Source: Haloplanus salinarum
GTDB lineage: Archaea > Halobacteriota > Halobacteria > Halobacteriales > Haloferacaceae
NCBI RefSeq assembly: GCF_024498175.1
Contig: NZ_CP101823.1
Location: 3,292,987-3,356,986 of the forward strand
DNA: 64,000 nt
Reading direction: 5' to 3'
Shown: piece after piece, positions 20,966 through 48,404 of the stretch
Position numbering within the stretch: position 1 is the first letter of the stretch
Layout: each line of letters starts with the position of its first letter
The notes under the pieces: generated by a model
Database searches by the model: none
What the model saw: only the letters and a program-made list of their open reading frames with translations
What the model was told of the DNA's origin: nothing
Position numbers and translations under genes: made by a program

Positions 20966-22726
20966 ATGACCGAGTACTTCGAGGTCCACGCGCGGGACGG
21001 GGCCGCCCGTCTTGGCGAACTCCGCCTGCGCGACCCCGTGGCCACGCCCGCCCTCGCCGACGACGTCGTCGTCGACGGCGGGAGCCTCTGGGGGGCCGAC
21101 CGTGACCATCCCGAGGGGAGCGAGGCCGAACTCACGGTCCTCCCACACCGGGCGTTCCCGGCCGGCACCGACCCGACCGTCCAGGACTCCTTCGCCGTCG
21201 ACTACCCGGACGTGGACTACCCGAGCGTCGGCGTCGTCACCGCCGAGACGGCCGCCGACTACGGCTGTGACGCCTACGTGCTCTCGAACGCTCCGGGCGT
21301 CGTGGGCCACGGCGCCTCCTTCCGCGACGAACTGATCGCCGTTCGGGAGTCGATCCCCGCCGACACCGCGCTCTACCTCGCCGGCGTCGCCACGCCCCGC
21401 AACGTCGCGACGCTCGTCGCCGCGGGCGTCGACCTCGTCGACACCAAACTCGCCCGGGTGAAGGGTCGACAGGGTCGCTACCTCACCCCCGAGGGCGAGT
21501 ACCACCTCGACGAACTCGACGAACTCCCCGGCGCCCACCCGAACGATCCGCCGCTCGCGGCGTTCACCCGCGAGGACTGTGTCGCCCACAACGTCGCCGC
21601 CCTCGAGGCCGAACTCCGCACGGTCCGCACCCGGATCCGACGGGGGCGGCTCCGCGACTACCTCGAGGGGCAGGCCCGCCACGAGAACTGGCTAACCGCC
21701 TCGTTCCGCGAGTTCGATCAGCAGTACCGCTACCTGGAGCGGCGGACGCCGGTGATCCGCGATACGGAACTCAGCGCGGCGAGCGAAGATACACTCAACC
21801 GTGTGGAGATCCAGCGGTTCGCCGACCGGGTGACGACCCGCTATCGCAACCGGTTTGCGAACCCGCTCGTGCTCGTGCCGTGTTCGGCGCGCAAGCCCTA
21901 CAGCGACTCCCAGAGCCACGCCCAGTTCCACCGCGCCATCGGCTACCGCGGCCACGTCGCCTCGATGACCTCGCCCATCGGCGTCGTCCCCCAGGAACTG
22001 GAGTGTACGTATCCCGCCCAGCACTACGACGCGGTGGTCACCGGCGACTGGACCGACGGCGAGAAGGCCTTCGTCGCCGCGGTACTGGAGCGCTACCTGG
22101 AGCGCAACGACTACCCGCGGGTGATCGCCCACGTGCCCGGCGAGGGCTACCGCGACATCTGCGAGCGGGTGGCCGACCGGGTGGACGTCCCCTTCGAGTT
22201 CACCGTCGCGGACCACCCCACCACCTCCGAGTCGTTGTCGAACCTCGACGCGGCGCTCGCCGGCGAGCTCAAATACTCGAAGCGTGAGCGCCAGCACAAC
22301 ACGATCCGGGCCATCGCGGACTACCAGTTCGGCGCCGACGCGGGCGACGACCTCTTCCCGGACCTGCAAACGACGAGCCGGCACCCAAAACTCCAGGTAC
22401 GCGACGGCGACGGCGTCCAGCTCGCGGCGCAGGTGCCCCAGTACGGCGTCCTCGCCTTCACCCTCGCGGGTGCCCGCCACTGGGTCGAGAGCGACGCGCC
22501 GACCAAACGGGTCGACATCGACGGCTTCGTCCCCCACGGGAGCGTCCTCGCGCCCGGCGTGACCGACGCCGACGCCGACGTCCGCGTCGGCGACGAGGTG
22601 GTCGTCGAGGGGCCGGCCGCCTTCGGTATCGGCCGCGCGACGATGCACGGCGACGAGATGCGGGAGAGCACCCGCGGCGTCGCCGTCGAGATGCGCCACG
22701 TCGAGGCGACCGAGGACAACGCTTAA
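20966..22726 (+). CDS. arcS: Archaeosine synthase α subunit
   Basis: 586 residues. The N-terminal half is a TGT-like barrel that has lost the transglycosylase catalytic set; residues ~300-320 hold the ArcS signature PCSARKPYSDSQSH with C306; and the C-terminal ~80 residues are a PUA domain (KRVDIDGFVPHGSVLAPGV). ArcS adds lysine to preQ0-15 in tRNA, and RaSEA then releases the formamidino product archaeosine. Length and layout match euryarchaeal ArcS. The AOR-like gene follows after 25 nt, so the two are likely cotranscribed. Confidence 0.95.
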   Translation: MTEYFEVHARDGAARLGELRLRDPVATPALADDVVVDGGSLWGADRDHPEGSEAELTVLPHRAFPAGTDPTVQDSFAVDYPDVDYPSVGVVTAETAADYGCDAYVLSNAPGVVGHGASFRDELIAVRESIPADTALYLAGVATPRNVATLVAAGVDLVDTKLARVKGRQGRYLTPEGEYHLDELDELPGAHPNDPPLAAFTREDCVAHNVAALEAELRTVRTRIRRGRLRDYLEGQARHENWLTASFREFDQQYRYLERRTPVIRDTELSAASEDTLNRVEIQRFADRVTTRYRNRFANPLVLVPCSARKPYSDSQSHAQFHRAIGYRGHVASMTSPIGVVPQELECTYPAQHYDAVVTGDWTDGEKAFVAAVLERYLERNDYPRVIAHVPGEGYRDICERVADRVDVPFEFTVADHPTTSESLSNLDAALAGELKYSKRERQHNTIRAIADYQFGADAGDDLFPDLQTTSRHPKLQVRDGDGVQLAAQVPQYGVLAFTLAGARHWVESDAPTKRVDIDGFVPHGSVLAPGVTDADADVRVGDEVVVEGPAAFGIGRATMHGDEMRESTRGVAVEMRHVEATEDNA

Positions 22727-22751
22727 CACCGTCTCCCGACTACGTGTGGCG

Positions 22752-24614
22752 ATGTCACCGCCCGTTCGACGCGACGTGTTGCGGGTCGACCTCTCCGCCG
22801 GGACCGTCTCCCGCGAACGGGTCCCCGACGGCTGGCGACGCGACTTCCTGGGCGGCAAGGGCCTCGGCGCCCGCTACCTCTACGACGAACTCGACGCCGG
22901 CACCGATCCGCTGGGGCCGGACAATCGGCTCTGTCTCCTCCTCGGCCCGCTCTCGGGCTACCTCCCCGGCGAGTCGCGCTACGCGGCGGTCACCAAGTCG
23001 CCCCTGACCGGCGCCTTCCTCGACTCCTACAGCGGCGGGTCCTTCGCCGACGCCCTCGCCGGCGCCCTCCCCGAGGCCTTCGGCCTGGTGATCGAGGGCG
23101 TCGCCGACGATCCGACGGTCCTCACCGTCCGTGACGGCGAGGCGAAACTGGCCGGCGCGGGCGACCTGTGGGGGGCCGACACCGTCGAGACGGACGCCGC
23201 CCTCGACGGCGCCGTGGCCTGTATCGGCCCGGCGGGCGAACGCCGGGTCGCCTACGCGACGGTCGCGTGTGACGCCGGCGACCACCACGCCGGCCGCGGC
23301 GGCGCCGGCGCCGTCATGGGCGCGAAACGGCTCAAGGCGGTCGCGGTCCACGGCGACCCGCCCGACCCGCCGCCGGCGCTCGCCAACCTCCGCGAGCGCT
23401 ACGGCGCCGCCTACCGCGACGACGACACCGGCCGCTGGCAGGCCGCCGGCGAGACGGTCGAGAGCGTCGACTTCGCCAACGAGGTGGGCGTCCTCTCGAC
23501 CCGGGGCTGGCAGGGCGGCCGCTTCGAGGACGCCGGCGATATCGGCATCGAGGCGGTCCGCGAGGCGGCCACCGGCCGCGAGAACGCGGACGACGCGGTG
23601 CCCGGCGGCTTCCGCGTCGACGTCGAGGACGGCCAATCCGTCCCCCGCGGCGGGGCGCTCATGTCCCTCGGCGCCGGCCTCGGGGTCGACGACTTCGACG
23701 CCGTGGCCCGCCTCGGCGCCGCCTGTGACCGTCTCGGGATGGACGCCATCAGCGCGGGCAACGCCGTCGCCTGGGCCACCCGCGCCGCCGACGACGGGGC
23801 CATCGACCCCGACGTCGACCCGGACCTCGCGTTCGGGGACGCCGACGCGGCCGAGCGACTGTTGTCGGCCATCGCCACCCGATCGACCGACTTGGGCGAC
23901 ACCCTCGCCGACGGCGTCCACGACGCCCGCGAGCGGTACGGGGCCGGCGCCGTGCCGACGGTGAAGTCGATGGCACTCCCGGCCTACGACCCACGGGGTG
24001 CCGCGGGGATGGCACTCGCCTACGCCACCAGCGACCGCGGCGGCTGTCACCGCCGTGCCCGCCCGGTCGAACGCGAGGCCTTCGCCCGCGACGCGTGGAC
24101 GACCGCAGACCGCGTCAGGACCGTCGTCGGCGCCCAGAACGTCCGCTCGACGCTCTGGAGCCTCGTCGTCGACGACTTCGCGGGCGAGACCATGTGGGAG
24201 GACCTCGGCGCCGAGTGGCTGACGGCCGTCGGCCTCGAGTACGACCGCGACTCGCTGGCGCGGGTCGGCGAACGCGTCTGGACGCTCGTCCGCCTGTTCA
24301 ACGTCCGCGAGGGCTTCGACCGCGAGGACGACACCCTACCCGCCCTGTTCGAGGACCCGCTTCCCGACGGGCCCGCGGCGGGCCGCACCGTCGACCGCGG
24401 GGCGTTCGAGGACATGCTCGACGCCTACTACGCGGCCCGCGGGTGGTCGGTCGACGGCCGCCCGACCGACGCGCTCGTCGACCGACTGGACCTCGCCGCC
24501 GTCGTCGACGCCGAGACGCCGCTCGGAAACGCCGCCGACGGGGCGGTCGTCGACGCCGGATCCGGGGACGGGGTCGGCGGACGCGACCGCCACCCCCGCA
24601 GTCGGGAGCCGTGA
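22752..24614 (+). CDS. Aldehyde ferredoxin oxidoreductase-like protein lacking the Fe-S cysteines
   Basis: 620 residues aligning end to end with AOR enzymes: FLGGKGLGARYLYDEL, LGPDNRL, TKSPLTGAFLDSYSGG, AGRGGAGAVMGAKRLKAVAV, and AYDPRGAAGMALAYATSDRG with GCHRRA, the last two being pterin and cofactor loops. Where active AORs have CxxCxxxC (about residues 280-300 here) there is DAVPGGFRVDVEDGQSVPRG with no cysteine, and where the fourth ligand sits (about 461-472) there is AQNVRSTLWSLV. So the [4Fe-4S] cluster cannot be bound as usual. A paralogue at 46470 keeps all four cysteines. The stop overlaps the next gene's start (GTGA). A GTG at 22746 is an alternative start. Confidence 0.87.
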   Translation: MSPPVRRDVLRVDLSAGTVSRERVPDGWRRDFLGGKGLGARYLYDELDAGTDPLGPDNRLCLLLGPLSGYLPGESRYAAVTKSPLTGAFLDSYSGGSFADALAGALPEAFGLVIEGVADDPTVLTVRDGEAKLAGAGDLWGADTVETDAALDGAVACIGPAGERRVAYATVACDAGDHHAGRGGAGAVMGAKRLKAVAVHGDPPDPPPALANLRERYGAAYRDDDTGRWQAAGETVESVDFANEVGVLSTRGWQGGRFEDAGDIGIEAVREAATGRENADDAVPGGFRVDVEDGQSVPRGGALMSLGAGLGVDDFDAVARLGAACDRLGMDAISAGNAVAWATRAADDGAIDPDVDPDLAFGDADAAERLLSAIATRSTDLGDTLADGVHDARERYGAGAVPTVKSMALPAYDPRGAAGMALAYATSDRGGCHRRARPVEREAFARDAWTTADRVRTVVGAQNVRSTLWSLVVDDFAGETMWEDLGAEWLTAVGLEYDRDSLARVGERVWTLVRLFNVREGFDREDDTLPALFEDPLPDGPAAGRTVDRGAFEDMLDAYYAARGWSVDGRPTDALVDRLDLAAVVDAETPLGNAADGAVVDAGSGDGVGGRDRHPRSREP

Positions 24615-24775
24615 CCGGGTCGAACCCAGCCCGGCCACACGACTGTCATCGCTGTGGCGAGACCATCGAACCGGGGGACATCTACGGTGCGCTCGACCTC
24701 CTCGACGCCGACGGCGAACTGCGGGTGTTGCTCTGTCGCTCCTGTTCGGCGGCGCTGCGCGACTTCCTCGAATGA
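24611..24775 (+). CDS. 54-residue zinc-finger protein coupled to the AOR-like gene
   Basis: From GTG 24611, overlapping the AOR-like stop as GTGA. HDCHRCGETIEPGDIYGALD and LLCRSCSAALRDFLE supply two CxxC pairs (C12/C15 and C42/C45) plus a nearby His, a treble-clef zinc site. The tight coupling suggests equal expression with the AOR-like protein; a structural or partner role is inference. The overlapping ATG at 24772 opens a frame that is Arg/Pro-rich and not a gene. Confidence 0.82.
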   Translation: MTGSNPARPHDCHRCGETIEPGDIYGALDLLDADGELRVLLCRSCSAALRDFLE

Positions 24776-24853: not shown

Positions 24854-25240
24854 ATGGACGAATTCGACCTCGGCGTTCCCCGACAGATCCTCGACTCGCT
24901 TCCCGACGACGACGACGCGGCCCGAGAGGACATGCAGCGGGCCGTCGTCGGCCTCGAAGGCCGACTCAACGAGGCCGTCGAATCCGCCGACGACGAACGC
25001 GAGGCCGCACAGAACGTCGTCGGTGCCCTCGAACGCCTGGAGGAACAGCTCGAACAGTACGACGAGTTCGTCCCCGAACTCCGCGCGTGGGGGCAGTCGC
25101 CCATCTACGCCATCGCGTGGCGCAACCTGCAGGCGGACCTCATCATGCAGATTCAGGAGGTCGGCTGGGTCGCCGAGCGCATCGACCGTGAGCGCAACTA
25201 CCGAACCGTCGAGGACGGCATCCGCCTGAGCGATCGGTAG
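24854..25240 (+). CDS. Conserved haloarchaeal coiled-coil protein, unknown
   Basis: 128 highly acidic residues. Residues ~22-70 are a predicted coiled coil (REDMQRAVVGLEGRLNEAVE, NVVGALERLEEQLEQYDEF), followed by WGQSPIYAIAWRNLQADLIM, QEVGWVAERIDRE and a short tail. No enzyme motif or membrane segment. It stands between the AOR-like operon and the ubiquitin-like gene with promoter-like sequences on both sides. Function not known. Confidence 0.75.
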   Translation: MDEFDLGVPRQILDSLPDDDDAAREDMQRAVVGLEGRLNEAVESADDEREAAQNVVGALERLEEQLEQYDEFVPELRAWGQSPIYAIAWRNLQADLIMQIQEVGWVAERIDRERNYRTVEDGIRLSDR

Positions 25241-25268
25241 GGCGCCGGCGGCACACCGTGTCACGTCA

Positions 25269-25277
25269 CTTTTTACG
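25269..25277 (+). promoter_or_regulatory. TATA-like box of the ubiquitin-like gene
   Basis: CTTTTTACG, 22-30 nt before ATG 25299. Confidence 0.6.
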
Positions 25278-25298
25278 ACCGAGCCCCCAACGGATGAC

Positions 25299-25583
25299 AT
25301 GGATCTGGAACTGCGGTTTTTCGCCACGTTCCGCGAGGCAGTCGGTCAGAAGACTCTGGAACACGAGTTCGAGGACGGCGCCACCGTCGGCGAGGTTCTC
25401 CTGACTCTCGAATCGGCGTACGACGGCCTGGAAGGCAAGCTGATCGACGATCAGGGTGACCTCCAGCCGAACTTGAACATCCTGAAAAACGGTCGGGAGG
25501 TGCTACATATGGAGGGCACCGAGACGGTGATGGAGGACGGCGACACGCTGTCGGTGTTCCCGCCGGTGGCGGGCGGGGCATGA
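25299..25583 (+). CDS. Ubiquitin-like SAMP/MoaD-family protein, closest to SAMP3
   Basis: 94 residues of β-grasp fold: MDLELRFFATFREAVGQKTL, ATVGEVLLTLESAYDGLEGK, LNILKNGREVLHMEG and GDTLSVFPPVAGG. From memory, Haloferax SAMP3 has nearly the same FFATFRE, LKNGREV and FPPVAGG segments. SAMPs are conjugated to lysines, or donate sulfur, through a C-terminal Gly-Gly activated by the E1 enzyme UbaA. Here the frame adds one Ala after the Gly-Gly (GGC GGG GCA TGA) because the stop overlaps the next start (ATGA). That would block adenylation unless the residue is removed. Two further genes follow in tight coupling. Confidence 0.9.
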   Translation: MDLELRFFATFREAVGQKTLEHEFEDGATVGEVLLTLESAYDGLEGKLIDDQGDLQPNLNILKNGREVLHMEGTETVMEDGDTLSVFPPVAGGA

Positions 25584-25849
25584 ACGACGAGTGGGTTCGT
25601 CGGGAGCGCTCCTTCCGCGGCATCTCGAAGCGGCTGGCGATCCAGTATCTCGAAACCCTCGGCGCCGAGCAGGTGAGCGAGGGCCGCGTCGAGGCCGACG
25701 ACTGGGCGGCCGACCTCTCGGCACAGACGGTCGGCGTCGGTCCGTCGGTGTCGCTGACACAGATCGACTTCGTCTTCGAGGGCGACCCGGACGTCCTCGA
25801 CCCGCTCATCGAACGGTTCGCACAGAAGGCGATGCGCGCGGGTGGCTGA
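25580..25849 (+). CDS. Small protein coupled to the SAMP-like gene, C-terminus Ala-Gly-Gly
   Basis: 89 residues, ATG overlapping the ubiquitin-like stop. Two helices and a β-pair: RRERSFRGISKRLAIQYLET, GRVEADDWAADLSAQTVGVG, VSLTQIDFVFEGDPDVLDPL, then ERFAQKAMRAGG. The fold reads like the small MoaD-related C-terminal domains found next to or fused to MoaD proteins in thermophiles, but this is a recollection. The protein itself ends in Gly-Gly. Its stop overlaps the start of the third gene. Confidence 0.8.
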   Translation: MNDEWVRRERSFRGISKRLAIQYLETLGAEQVSEGRVEADDWAADLSAQTVGVGPSVSLTQIDFVFEGDPDVLDPLIERFAQKAMRAGG

Positions 25850-26216
25850 CGTGTCCGGCCCGGAAGACTCCCCCGTCGACGGCCAGGTGTTCATGCTCGC
25901 GGCCGCCAAGGCGAGCGTCGGCCCCGGACGGCTGTCGGAGCTGCTGACATGCGTCCAGCGCGACCTCGACGACCGCTTCGACACCTACCGCCGCGAGTTC
26001 GAACGCGTCGTCGACGGCGAGGACCGCGAGGTGTTCCTCGTCCCCATGGACCACTGGGAGACGGTCGGCGACCGCCTCGGTCTCGACCGCCGGGAGATCG
26101 AAGCCGTCGCCCGCACCCACGCCGAACAGCTCCGGCGGATCGGCTCCGAGACCGACCGCCGCGAGGAGTTCGAGACGGCCCTCGAGATCCGCGAGGCGGT
26201 CGTCGTCGGTCGGTGA
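25842..26216 (+). CDS. Third gene of the SAMP-like operon, unknown
   Basis: 124 residues from GTG 25842, overlapping the previous stop (a GTG at 25851 is an alternative). Mostly helical: QVFMLAAAKASVGPGRLSEL, TCVQRDLDDRFDTYRREFE, VFLVPMDHWETVGDRLGLDR and AVARTHAEQLRRIGSETDRR. One cysteine. Not assignable to a characterised family by eye; haloarchaeal distribution is likely. The shared transcript suggests a role with the ubiquitin-like protein or in molybdopterin/sulfur transfer. Confidence 0.75.
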   Translation: MADVSGPEDSPVDGQVFMLAAAKASVGPGRLSELLTCVQRDLDDRFDTYRREFERVVDGEDREVFLVPMDHWETVGDRLGLDRREIEAVARTHAEQLRRIGSETDRREEFETALEIREAVVVGR

Positions 26217-46469: not shown

Positions 46470-48404
46470 TCAGTCGTCCGCCGGAGCCTGACCGCTGGAG
46501 CCGGAGACGCCCGTGCCGGGGCCGACGTCGATGTCGAGACGTTCGAGCGTCTCGTCGGTGACGACGCCGTCCTCCCAGCCGCGGTGGCTGTAGTACTCCG
46601 CCTTCATCGAGGCGAGGTCGCAGAGTTCGCCCTCGGAGCCACCCTGACCGGGGATGGCCTCGTCGTCGCCCTCGACGAACCGACCCGGCAGCGAGTCGTC
46701 GGCGCCGTCGAAGCCGGCGAGGTTGTTGAAGTAGCGTTCGAGGTTGTACACGCGCTCGCCGGCCGTCATGAGCTCCTCCTCGGAGAGGTCACGACCGGTC
46801 ATGCCGTTGTACTGTTTGACGTACTCCTCGATGCCCTCCGCGAAGGCGTTGAACTTGCAGATGTCGAAGGAGTCCGAGATGGCGTGGAGGTCCTGGAAGG
46901 TGGCGCACAGCTCGCCCTTGCCTTCCTCCTCGTACGGGTCGACCTTCTCCGGGATGCCGAGAATCTCGGCGGCCGGCGTGTAGCCGCGCAGGTGGCAGGC
47001 GCCACGGTTCGAGGTGGCGTAGCCGATGCCCATGCCCTTCATACAGCGCGGGTCGTAGGCGGCGATGGTCTGACCCTTGACGTCGAGGCGGCACTCGTGG
47101 CCGTCGACCTCTTCGGCGGCGCGCTCCGGGCCCTTCGCGAGGAAGTCGCCCAGGTCGCTGTTGCGGTGGCCGACCTCCTCGATGAGGTCGATCATGTGCT
47201 CCTCGTCGCCCCAGTCGATCTGGTCGTCGAGGTCGTCGAGGTAACCCTCGTCGCTCATCTCCATCGCCATGGCGAACATGTTGCCCATGTCGATGGTGTC
47301 GACCCCCATGTCGTTACAGCGGTCGATCATGATCGCGATGGAGTCACGGTCGTCGTTGGCGGAGTTGGTGCCCAGGGCCCAAGCACTCTCGTACTCGTAG
47401 GACTCCATCTGGACGTTCATGTCCTGGCCCTTGTGCTTGTAGTTGACCTCGACCTCCTTCTTACAGGCGACCGGACAGGAGTGACAGGTCGGCTCGTCCA
47501 CGAGGATGTTCTCGCGGACGTTCTCGCCGCTGATGCGTTCGGCGACGAGGTCGGAGCCTTCCTCCTCGTTCATCGCGAACCCGGAGGTGTACTGGCCGTT
47601 CTTCGTCGGGTGGCCGTCCATCTCCTCCGTGATGTTCATCAGGACGTTCGTCCCGTACATCGAGAGCGCGCCCTCGTTGGGCGCGGTGACGTCGGACTCC
47701 TGGATGACCTGCATCGCCTGCCGGGCACCCTCGCCGAACGTATCGGAGTCGGCGGGCTTGGGCATGTCCGTCCCCGCTTTCACGACGACGGCCTTGACGC
47801 CCTTGTTGCCCATCACGGCACCGGTGCCACCGCGGCCCGAGGCGCGGTCGTCCTCGTTGACGATACAGGAGTAACGAACCTCGTTCTCGCCGGCCGGACC
47901 GATGGCCATACAGGAGAGGTTCTTGCCGTAGGACCCCTCGACTTCCTCCTCGATGATCTCTCGGGTCTCGTGGATGCCCTTGCCCCAGAGGTGGGAGGCA
48001 TCACGGAGTTCGAGTTCGCCGTCCTCGACGACGGCGTAGACGGGGTCGTCCGCCTGGCCGTCGAAGAGGATGCCGTCGAAGCCGGACCACTTGAGTCGGG
48101 CGCCGGACCAGCCACCGTGGTGGGAGTCCGTCACCGTCCCCGTGAGCGGGGACTTCGTACAGATCGCGATCCGACCGCTCATGACCGCCTGCGAGCCCGT
48201 GAGTGGCCCGGTCATGAACGCGAGCCGGTTGTCCGGGCCGAGCGGTTCGACGTCCGGACCGGCGTCGAAGACGTACTTCACGCCCAGTCCGCGGCCACCG
48301 ATGTACTTTTTCGCGTCCTCGTCGTCGATGCTCCGATACGAGACATCGCTAGCGCCGAGGTCCACGTGCGCTACGTGATCGTTGAATCCGCCTAATTCTG
48401 TCAT
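46470..48404 (-). CDS. Aldehyde ferredoxin oxidoreductase, tungsten/molybdenum-pterin enzyme
   Basis: 644 residues. All four cluster ligands are visible: CHSCPVACKKE gives C307, C310, C314, and C516 is in FDICKFNAF. Pterin regions: YIGGRGLGVKYVFDAG, TKSPLTGTVTDSHHGG, GRGGTGAVMGNKGVKAVVVK and YDPRCMKGMGIGYATSNRGA. AOR oxidises aldehydes to acids with ferredoxin as acceptor; haloarchaeal ferredoxin is 2Fe-2S (one is encoded at 40068). It is monocistronic and far longer in acidic loops than the 22752 paralogue. Confidence 0.95.
   Translation of the reverse strand: MTELGGFNDHVAHVDLGASDVSYRSIDDEDAKKYIGGRGLGVKYVFDAGPDVEPLGPDNRLAFMTGPLTGSQAVMSGRIAICTKSPLTGTVTDSHHGGWSGARLKWSGFDGILFDGQADDPVYAVVEDGELELRDASHLWGKGIHETREIIEEEVEGSYGKNLSCMAIGPAGENEVRYSCIVNEDDRASGRGGTGAVMGNKGVKAVVVKAGTDMPKPADSDTFGEGARQAMQVIQESDVTAPNEGALSMYGTNVLMNITEEMDGHPTKNGQYTSGFAMNEEEGSDLVAERISGENVRENILVDEPTCHSCPVACKKEVEVNYKHKGQDMNVQMESYEYESAWALGTNSANDDRDSIAIMIDRCNDMGVDTIDMGNMFAMAMEMSDEGYLDDLDDQIDWGDEEHMIDLIEEVGHRNSDLGDFLAKGPERAAEEVDGHECRLDVKGQTIAAYDPRCMKGMGIGYATSNRGACHLRGYTPAAEILGIPEKVDPYEEEGKGELCATFQDLHAISDSFDICKFNAFAEGIEEYVKQYNGMTGRDLSEEELMTAGERVYNLERYFNNLAGFDGADDSLPGRFVEGDDEAIPGQGGSEGELCDLASMKAEYYSHRGWEDGVVTDETLERLDIDVGPGTGVSGSSGQAPADD

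Follow-up and report, generated by a model that had tools for sequence, protein, structure and literature searches.

A haloarchaeal clade of aldehyde ferredoxin oxidoreductase homologues lacking the [4Fe-4S] ligands and its association with formate dehydrogenase genes

The Locus and Its AOR-Like Protein

The window (the whole 64,000-nucleotide stretch of Haloplanus salinarum DNA analyzed here) encodes, on the forward strand at 22752..24614, a protein of the aldehyde ferredoxin oxidoreductase (AOR) family (herein referred to as the clusterless AOR), recognized by its AFOR_N and AFOR_C matches, its orthologues and its predicted fold. The reading frame is intact, running from an ATG at 22752 (with an in-frame alternative GTG at 22746, from which all residue numbers herein are counted) to a stop codon at 24612–24614. 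Upstream lies ArcS, archaeosine synthase alpha (20966..22726, forward strand; NF040592, 808.8 bits), and the stop codon is overlapped by four bases by a 54-residue CxxC/CxxC zinc protein that starts with a GTG at 24611 (24611..24775, forward strand), just as the earlier note on this DNA had described. Farther downstream on the same strand are orf128, a SAMP1/MoaD-like gene, a small protein with a C-terminal GG and orf124 (24854..26216); the last three of these (25299–26216) resemble the Halobacteria-specific arCOG06308/06307/06309 group with its MoaD-like Ubl gene (PMC2948915). A canonical AOR paralogue identified by Pfam and alignment (46470..48404, reverse strand) carries all four cluster cysteines and served as a control.

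Both Pfam domains score far above their curated cut-offs in the clusterless AOR (AFOR_N 215.6 bits, AFOR_C 306.9 bits), and the predicted model (pLDDT 82.4, pTM 0.87) superimposes on 1aor with Z 45.9 and rmsd 2.2 over 575 residues and on 9mqx with Z 46.1; we treated the VIA-align rows that came after the AOR family, at Z 4 or less, as noise. The protein thus resembles AOR/WOR enzymes (1AOR, 8C0Z) in both domains, in the whole fold (Z 38–46 to solved AORs) and in the R, SGG, GRGG and DxxGxD motifs, and with an AOR fold predicted along the whole chain we take it to be a member of the AOR/WOR superfamily by descent. Databases annotate its clade as aldehyde ferredoxin oxidoreductase domain proteins, a label that is probably misleading.

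Loss of the Cluster Ligands and Remodeling of the Active Site

Virtually all (~99%) AOR/WOR sequences keep the four cysteines of a [4Fe-4S] cluster whose edge-to-edge distance to the tungsten cofactor in AOR is 3.5 angstrom (PMC10413684). In an alignment with the Pyrococcus furiosus enzyme (1AOR), the stretch that holds C288, C291 and C295 falls on residues of the clusterless AOR that include no cysteine, and C494 falls on Asp476 (24171..24173, forward strand). A wider alignment shows a deletion of ~11 residues at CxxCxxxC, not a substitution. What remains is a shortened loop at residues 278–288 (23577..23609, forward strand), which ranks with the least certain internal segments of the model (pLDDT below 50 at 274–281 and 283–288). 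Aspartate occupies position 476 in all 139 distinct clade sequences, which were themselves picked by the absence of CxxCxxxC, and cysteine in 20/20 canonical AORs; among the 30 orthologues aligned first, before any sorting, none has cysteine at a ligand column. The claim of the earlier note that an AOR-like frame here had lost all four ligands is thereby borne out, both by the alignment to the P. furiosus structure and by the conservation of the cysteine-free form in haloarchaeal orthologues. The loss is also specific, as the note had argued, the paralogue at 46470–48404 retaining every one of these residues. Nor do other cysteines stand in at the site: the near-invariant clade cysteines (C159, C327 and C434) lie outside the ligand columns and all occur in some canonical AORs as well, and we discarded the idea of a cluster carried by a conserved replacement cysteine.

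The active site, compared using residue roles from the literature (PMC10413684; PMC12096430), is altered more selectively. Where canonical AORs have E-Y/F-E (20/20 at each position), the last residue being the second-shell glutamate (E313 of P. furiosus AOR), the clusterless AOR has R301-G302-G303 (23646..23654, forward strand), and the clade has arginine in 138/139 sequences, glycine in 139/139 and then alanine (109), glycine (26) or serine (4) in all 139, so that the second-shell glutamate of AOR enzymes is found in none. The second-shell histidine and tyrosine (H448 and Y427 of P. furiosus AOR) are retained as H435 (139/139) and Y414 (138/139), and H435 is followed by a new, clade-invariant R436 (139/139; the pair at 24048..24053, forward strand). 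The suggestion in the note that the pterin loops are kept holds in part: R78, the glycines of SGG and GRGG, D333, Y414 and H435 persist near the metal-pterin site, and the second DxxGLC motif, the second-shell glutamate and the pterin-contacting cysteine are gone. Of the pterin-contact positions of P. furiosus AOR (R76, G95, R182, D338, D489 and C494), the clusterless AOR keeps R78 and the SGG glycines; D328 is aspartate or asparagine across the clade, the R182 position (180) is histidine, a residue shared with most sister-clade members, and at D489 and C494, which contact one pterin, stand tryptophan (W471, 24156..24158, forward strand; 139/139 in the clade) and aspartate. Because these one-pterin contacts are lost, the protein may bind the cofactor incompletely or not at all.

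Two of these changes were considered as marks of the clusterless state and set aside, since a tryptophan at 471 already occurs in a cluster-bearing relative (L193, genome G589) and a histidine at 180 in most of the cysteine-bearing sister clade. Judged by the alignments, the clusterless state is therefore defined by the loop deletion, D476, R301-G302-A/G303 and R436. Separately, in four genomes of one genus (G062, G063, G197 and G142; loci L170–L173) the alignment of the protein breaks into two segments near residue 290, as though an insert lay in the former cluster loop, and these copies have a cysteine at position 472.

Origin, Distribution and Selection of the Clusterless Clade

Orthologues at 51–89% identity are found in many related genomes and form one side of a branch with an SH-aLRT of 100, the neighbors in the tree being haloarchaeal AORs with a cluster; on this topology the clade is monophyletic and derives from cysteine-bearing AORs. 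Its closest relatives, a haloarchaeal sister clade (L147–L149, L157–L166) at 41–47% identity, share H180/H181 in most members but keep CxxCxxxC, the fourth cysteine and the glutamate, and their three annotated plasmid loci place them among amidase, polyamine-transport or aldehyde-dehydrogenase genes. Across 391 haloarchaeal genomes the clusterless AOR occurs in 215, a count taken after removing six genomes whose matches were canonical sister-clade AORs; Haloferax gibbonsii (L068) is among the organisms that carry the clade. Outside Halobacteria, with 295 genomes of the phylum sampled, the sole match listed at E <= 1e-170 is that in G589 (L193), a protein that keeps the cluster cysteines, yet has the Trp-Ser-Leu motif of the clusterless clade, and that looks like an intermediate form.

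Within the genus, the gene evolves under purifying selection, with a dN/dS of 0.22–0.25 against 0.04–0.28 for the neighboring genes. The earlier note had entertained a dying gene or degraded allele, and the loss of the cysteines and of the catalytic glutamate, together with a dN/dS somewhat above that of SAMP1, is what relaxed constraint on a decaying AOR gene would predict; such decay is nonetheless scarcely credible given an intact frame, dN/dS values in the range of the neighbors, a derived state that extends across a whole clade in 215 of 391 genomes, and novel residues that have become invariant (R436 and D476) or nearly so (R301, 138/139).

A large clade that is common across haloarchaea and uniformly without the cluster cysteines runs against the 99% rule of the family (PMC10413684). 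In the literature that we searched, with partial coverage, no description of the clade was found, and a text search for AOR pseudoenzymes likewise returned none; the main text of PMC13328260, which distinguishes 92 clades, contains no mention of Haloferax, haloarchaea or Halobacteria.

Association with Formate Dehydrogenase Genes

To describe the gene neighborhoods, the 80 named loci with flanks from one scan were combined with the window (81 loci in total), and their ORFs were compared all-against-all and annotated with Pfam and NCBIfam. A formate dehydrogenase (FDH) alpha gene lies within ~8 kb of the clusterless AOR in 54/81 loci (~27 genera or unnamed lineages), where we estimate that ~1% would be expected by chance at about two FDH-alpha genes per 3.5 Mb, and 63/81 have one or more of the genes for FDH-alpha, FDH-beta, YqeC, TorD and MobA nearby. 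Other recurrent neighbors are polyferredoxin/HdrA-like proteins (28 loci), YqeC (25), NarJ/TorD-type chaperones (21) and MobA (18), with FTHFS near the gene in some loci. DUF7124 is encoded in 28 of the 81 loci at a median gap of −1 base, in many of them directly downstream and often overlapping; this protein (L085:6991–7839 and 27 other loci, in many genera) has a long acidic linker. The adjacent enzymes are varied, comprising Tat-exported FDH with polyferredoxin, NuoF-linked FDH and stand-alone FDH, and in Haloprofundus (L038) the clusterless AOR accompanies MobA and YqeC alone, with no FDH gene adjacent; this variety of architectures argues for a maturation factor rather than a fixed subunit. 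Public annotation of pHTUR02 also places the gene together with a NuoF-like protein and fdhF.

In the window itself the gene is not beside FDH, and the nearest intact FDH-alpha gene found in the genome lies ~0.9 Mb away at 2394898–2397006. The window locus is nevertheless the same chromosomal site as that of Halomarina halobia (L041) and of L062, where ArcS, orf128, the clusterless AOR, DUF7124 and an FDH cluster stand together, and that of L038, where ArcS, orf128, YqeC, MobA, the clusterless AOR and SAMP do so. The same genome has a second FDH-alpha-like stretch with stops, apparently broken (G000:C1:2964115–2964818, L152).

The association extends to gene content. Among the 391 haloarchaeal genomes, 297 have an FDH-like gene (model A3, E <= 1e-200) and 272 have YqeC, and of the 215 with the clusterless AOR, 214 have the former (Fisher p 4e-39) and 214 the latter (p 4e-54), p values in which independence is overstated by the relatedness of the genomes; the two genomes that break the pattern have completeness values of 89% (G333) and 85% (G378). 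The converse does not hold: 83/297 FDH-like genomes, 53 of them with YqeC, lack the clusterless AOR, so haloarchaeal FDH has no general need of it, and it may instead serve particular FDH types or conditions. We are the first, as far as our search of the literature extends, to report this link.

FdhD (PF02634, FdhD-NarQ), the usual FDH sulfurtransferase/insertase, was found in 0/292 haloarchaeal genomes and in 0/60 relatives, and had no match in the genome of the window (G000); a control search matched 8/14 reference genomes, among them Escherichia coli and two methanogens. FdhD is thus missing from the haloarchaea searched although about three quarters of the 391 sampled genomes have FDH-like genes. 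Formate oxidation has been demonstrated in Halodesulfurarchaeum (PMC5437934), and haloarchaeal FDH maturation must therefore be possible without a recognizable FdhD. Together with the FDH link, this absence raises the question of how the haloarchaeal FDH cofactor is sulfurated and inserted.

The Zinc Microprotein Is a Locus Neighbor

The earlier note had coupled the clusterless AOR to the overlapping zinc protein, and a single functional unit of the two would account for the stop/start overlap (24611–24614) and for the linkage of the genes in 11/11 same-genus loci examined. Beyond the genus the pairing dissolves, and we think such a unit very unlikely. Homologues of the zinc protein occur in 21/60 genomes and 10/47 genera; outside the window's genus the gene is found, in most genera that have it, near ArcS (4/9 fetched loci), beside YqeC (4 loci: L186, L188, L191 and L192, three of them also with MobA) or near orf128, and directly beside the clusterless AOR in none of the fetched loci. 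Most genera with the clusterless AOR have no zinc gene adjoining it, and one genome with the zinc gene (G031) has no clusterless AOR. Since adjacency is confined to the window's genus, the overlap is a feature of that genus and not evidence of partnership, and the zinc protein is a locus neighbor rather than a conserved partner; its company elsewhere suggests that it may have an independent role connected with cofactors. ArcS, by comparison, is near the clusterless AOR in other genera too.

A Possible Role in FDH Biogenesis

The earlier note had expected either new chemistry or a regulator. It overlooked the association with FDH, YqeC and MobA, the strongest clue of all, which is found outside the window. 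The clusterless AOR almost never occurs without FDH and YqeC, frequently has MobA as a neighbor and belongs to a class that lacks FdhD, and we therefore propose that it contributes to the synthesis or delivery of the FDH cofactor. Tentatively, and at somewhat less than an even chance, we hypothesize that it is a non-redox AOR paralogue in FDH biogenesis that most likely holds or hands over a metal-pterin. Having lost the [4Fe-4S] cluster and the catalytic second-shell carboxylate, it would no longer be a redox enzyme. Known AOR-family proteins bind metal-bis-MPT (PMC12096430), and its cargo would be either metal-bis-MPT before guanylylation by MobA or the finished bis-MGD, which would place a carrier upstream of MobA or with bis-MGD; it would act with MobA, YqeC and TorD-type chaperones in organisms without FdhD. 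In M. extorquens the metal is inserted by MoeA1, addition of GMP by MobA gives bis-MGD, and FdhD sulfurates this cofactor and delivers it to FDH, deletion of fdhD abolishing both activity and tungsten content (PMC13197769); bis-MGD copurifies with FdhD-type chaperones (PMC6239281), and the function of YqeC is unsettled (PMC11448449). The clusterless AOR would be comparable with FdhD/FdsC solely in the place proposed for it in the pathway, at a late step in the handling of the cofactor of FDH, being an AOR-fold protein and not a member of PF02634. The more specific idea that a retired tungsten enzyme has become a carrier or insertase, passing the metal-pterin between MobA and FDH in place of the FdhD route, we consider unlikely. 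If a role of this kind is true, a catalytic metal-pterin enzyme has been turned into a cofactor-handling protein.

The main rival retains the regulatory half of the earlier suggestion. A pseudoenzyme that regulates the FDH system or assists its assembly structurally without handling the cofactor itself (for instance by sensing cofactor or formate, or by scaffolding FDH with DUF7124 and a small membrane protein) would fit the same FDH linkage, along with the position of DUF7124 directly downstream, often overlapping, in many of its 28 loci, and the fact that the cluster, the catalytic glutamate and the second pterin-binding motif are all gone. We nevertheless regard it as rather unlikely, since H435, Y414, R78, SGG, GRGG and D333 are nearly invariant, beyond what a pure scaffold would need, and since its gene is also coupled to MobA-YqeC at a locus that has no neighboring FDH gene (L038). 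The other half, that the protein is still an enzyme, would have it keep a W/Mo-pterin and perform a formate- or formaldehyde-linked reaction without an internal relay, or dock on a redox partner. The second-shell histidine and tyrosine, kept in essentially all members, point that way, as do the formate-metabolism neighbors, FTHFS included, and the breadth of a family whose reactions extend beyond aldehydes, for example to the reduction of benzoyl-CoA (PMC12096430). E. coli YdhV and the benzoyl-CoA reductase BamB, compared here by description, are likewise AOR-family proteins without the usual second-shell residues (PMC12096430); however, they have an extra cysteine ligand to the metal, and BamB works in a redox complex, whereas the protein studied here has no cluster ligands. 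Compared with AOR/WOR enzymes, too, it shares the second-shell tyrosine and histidine but lacks the [4Fe-4S] ligands, has the second-shell glutamate and second DxxGLC replaced and is linked to FDH. An enzyme is made less likely above all by the missing second-shell glutamate (A/G/S in 139/139, with glycine for the neighboring Tyr/Phe in 139/139), and also by the absence of the cluster and of any new conserved cysteine that could carry one there; we judge it quite unlikely.

Cofactor handling by the clusterless AOR in FDH biogenesis remains our preferred, if tentative, reading. Aside from these considerations, a second FDH-like type made up of two tandem molybdopterin-oxidoreductase genes was observed (G016:C3:187995–193143, L150, and similarly in G040, G027 and G010), and it occurs in some genomes that have neither the clusterless AOR nor YqeC.
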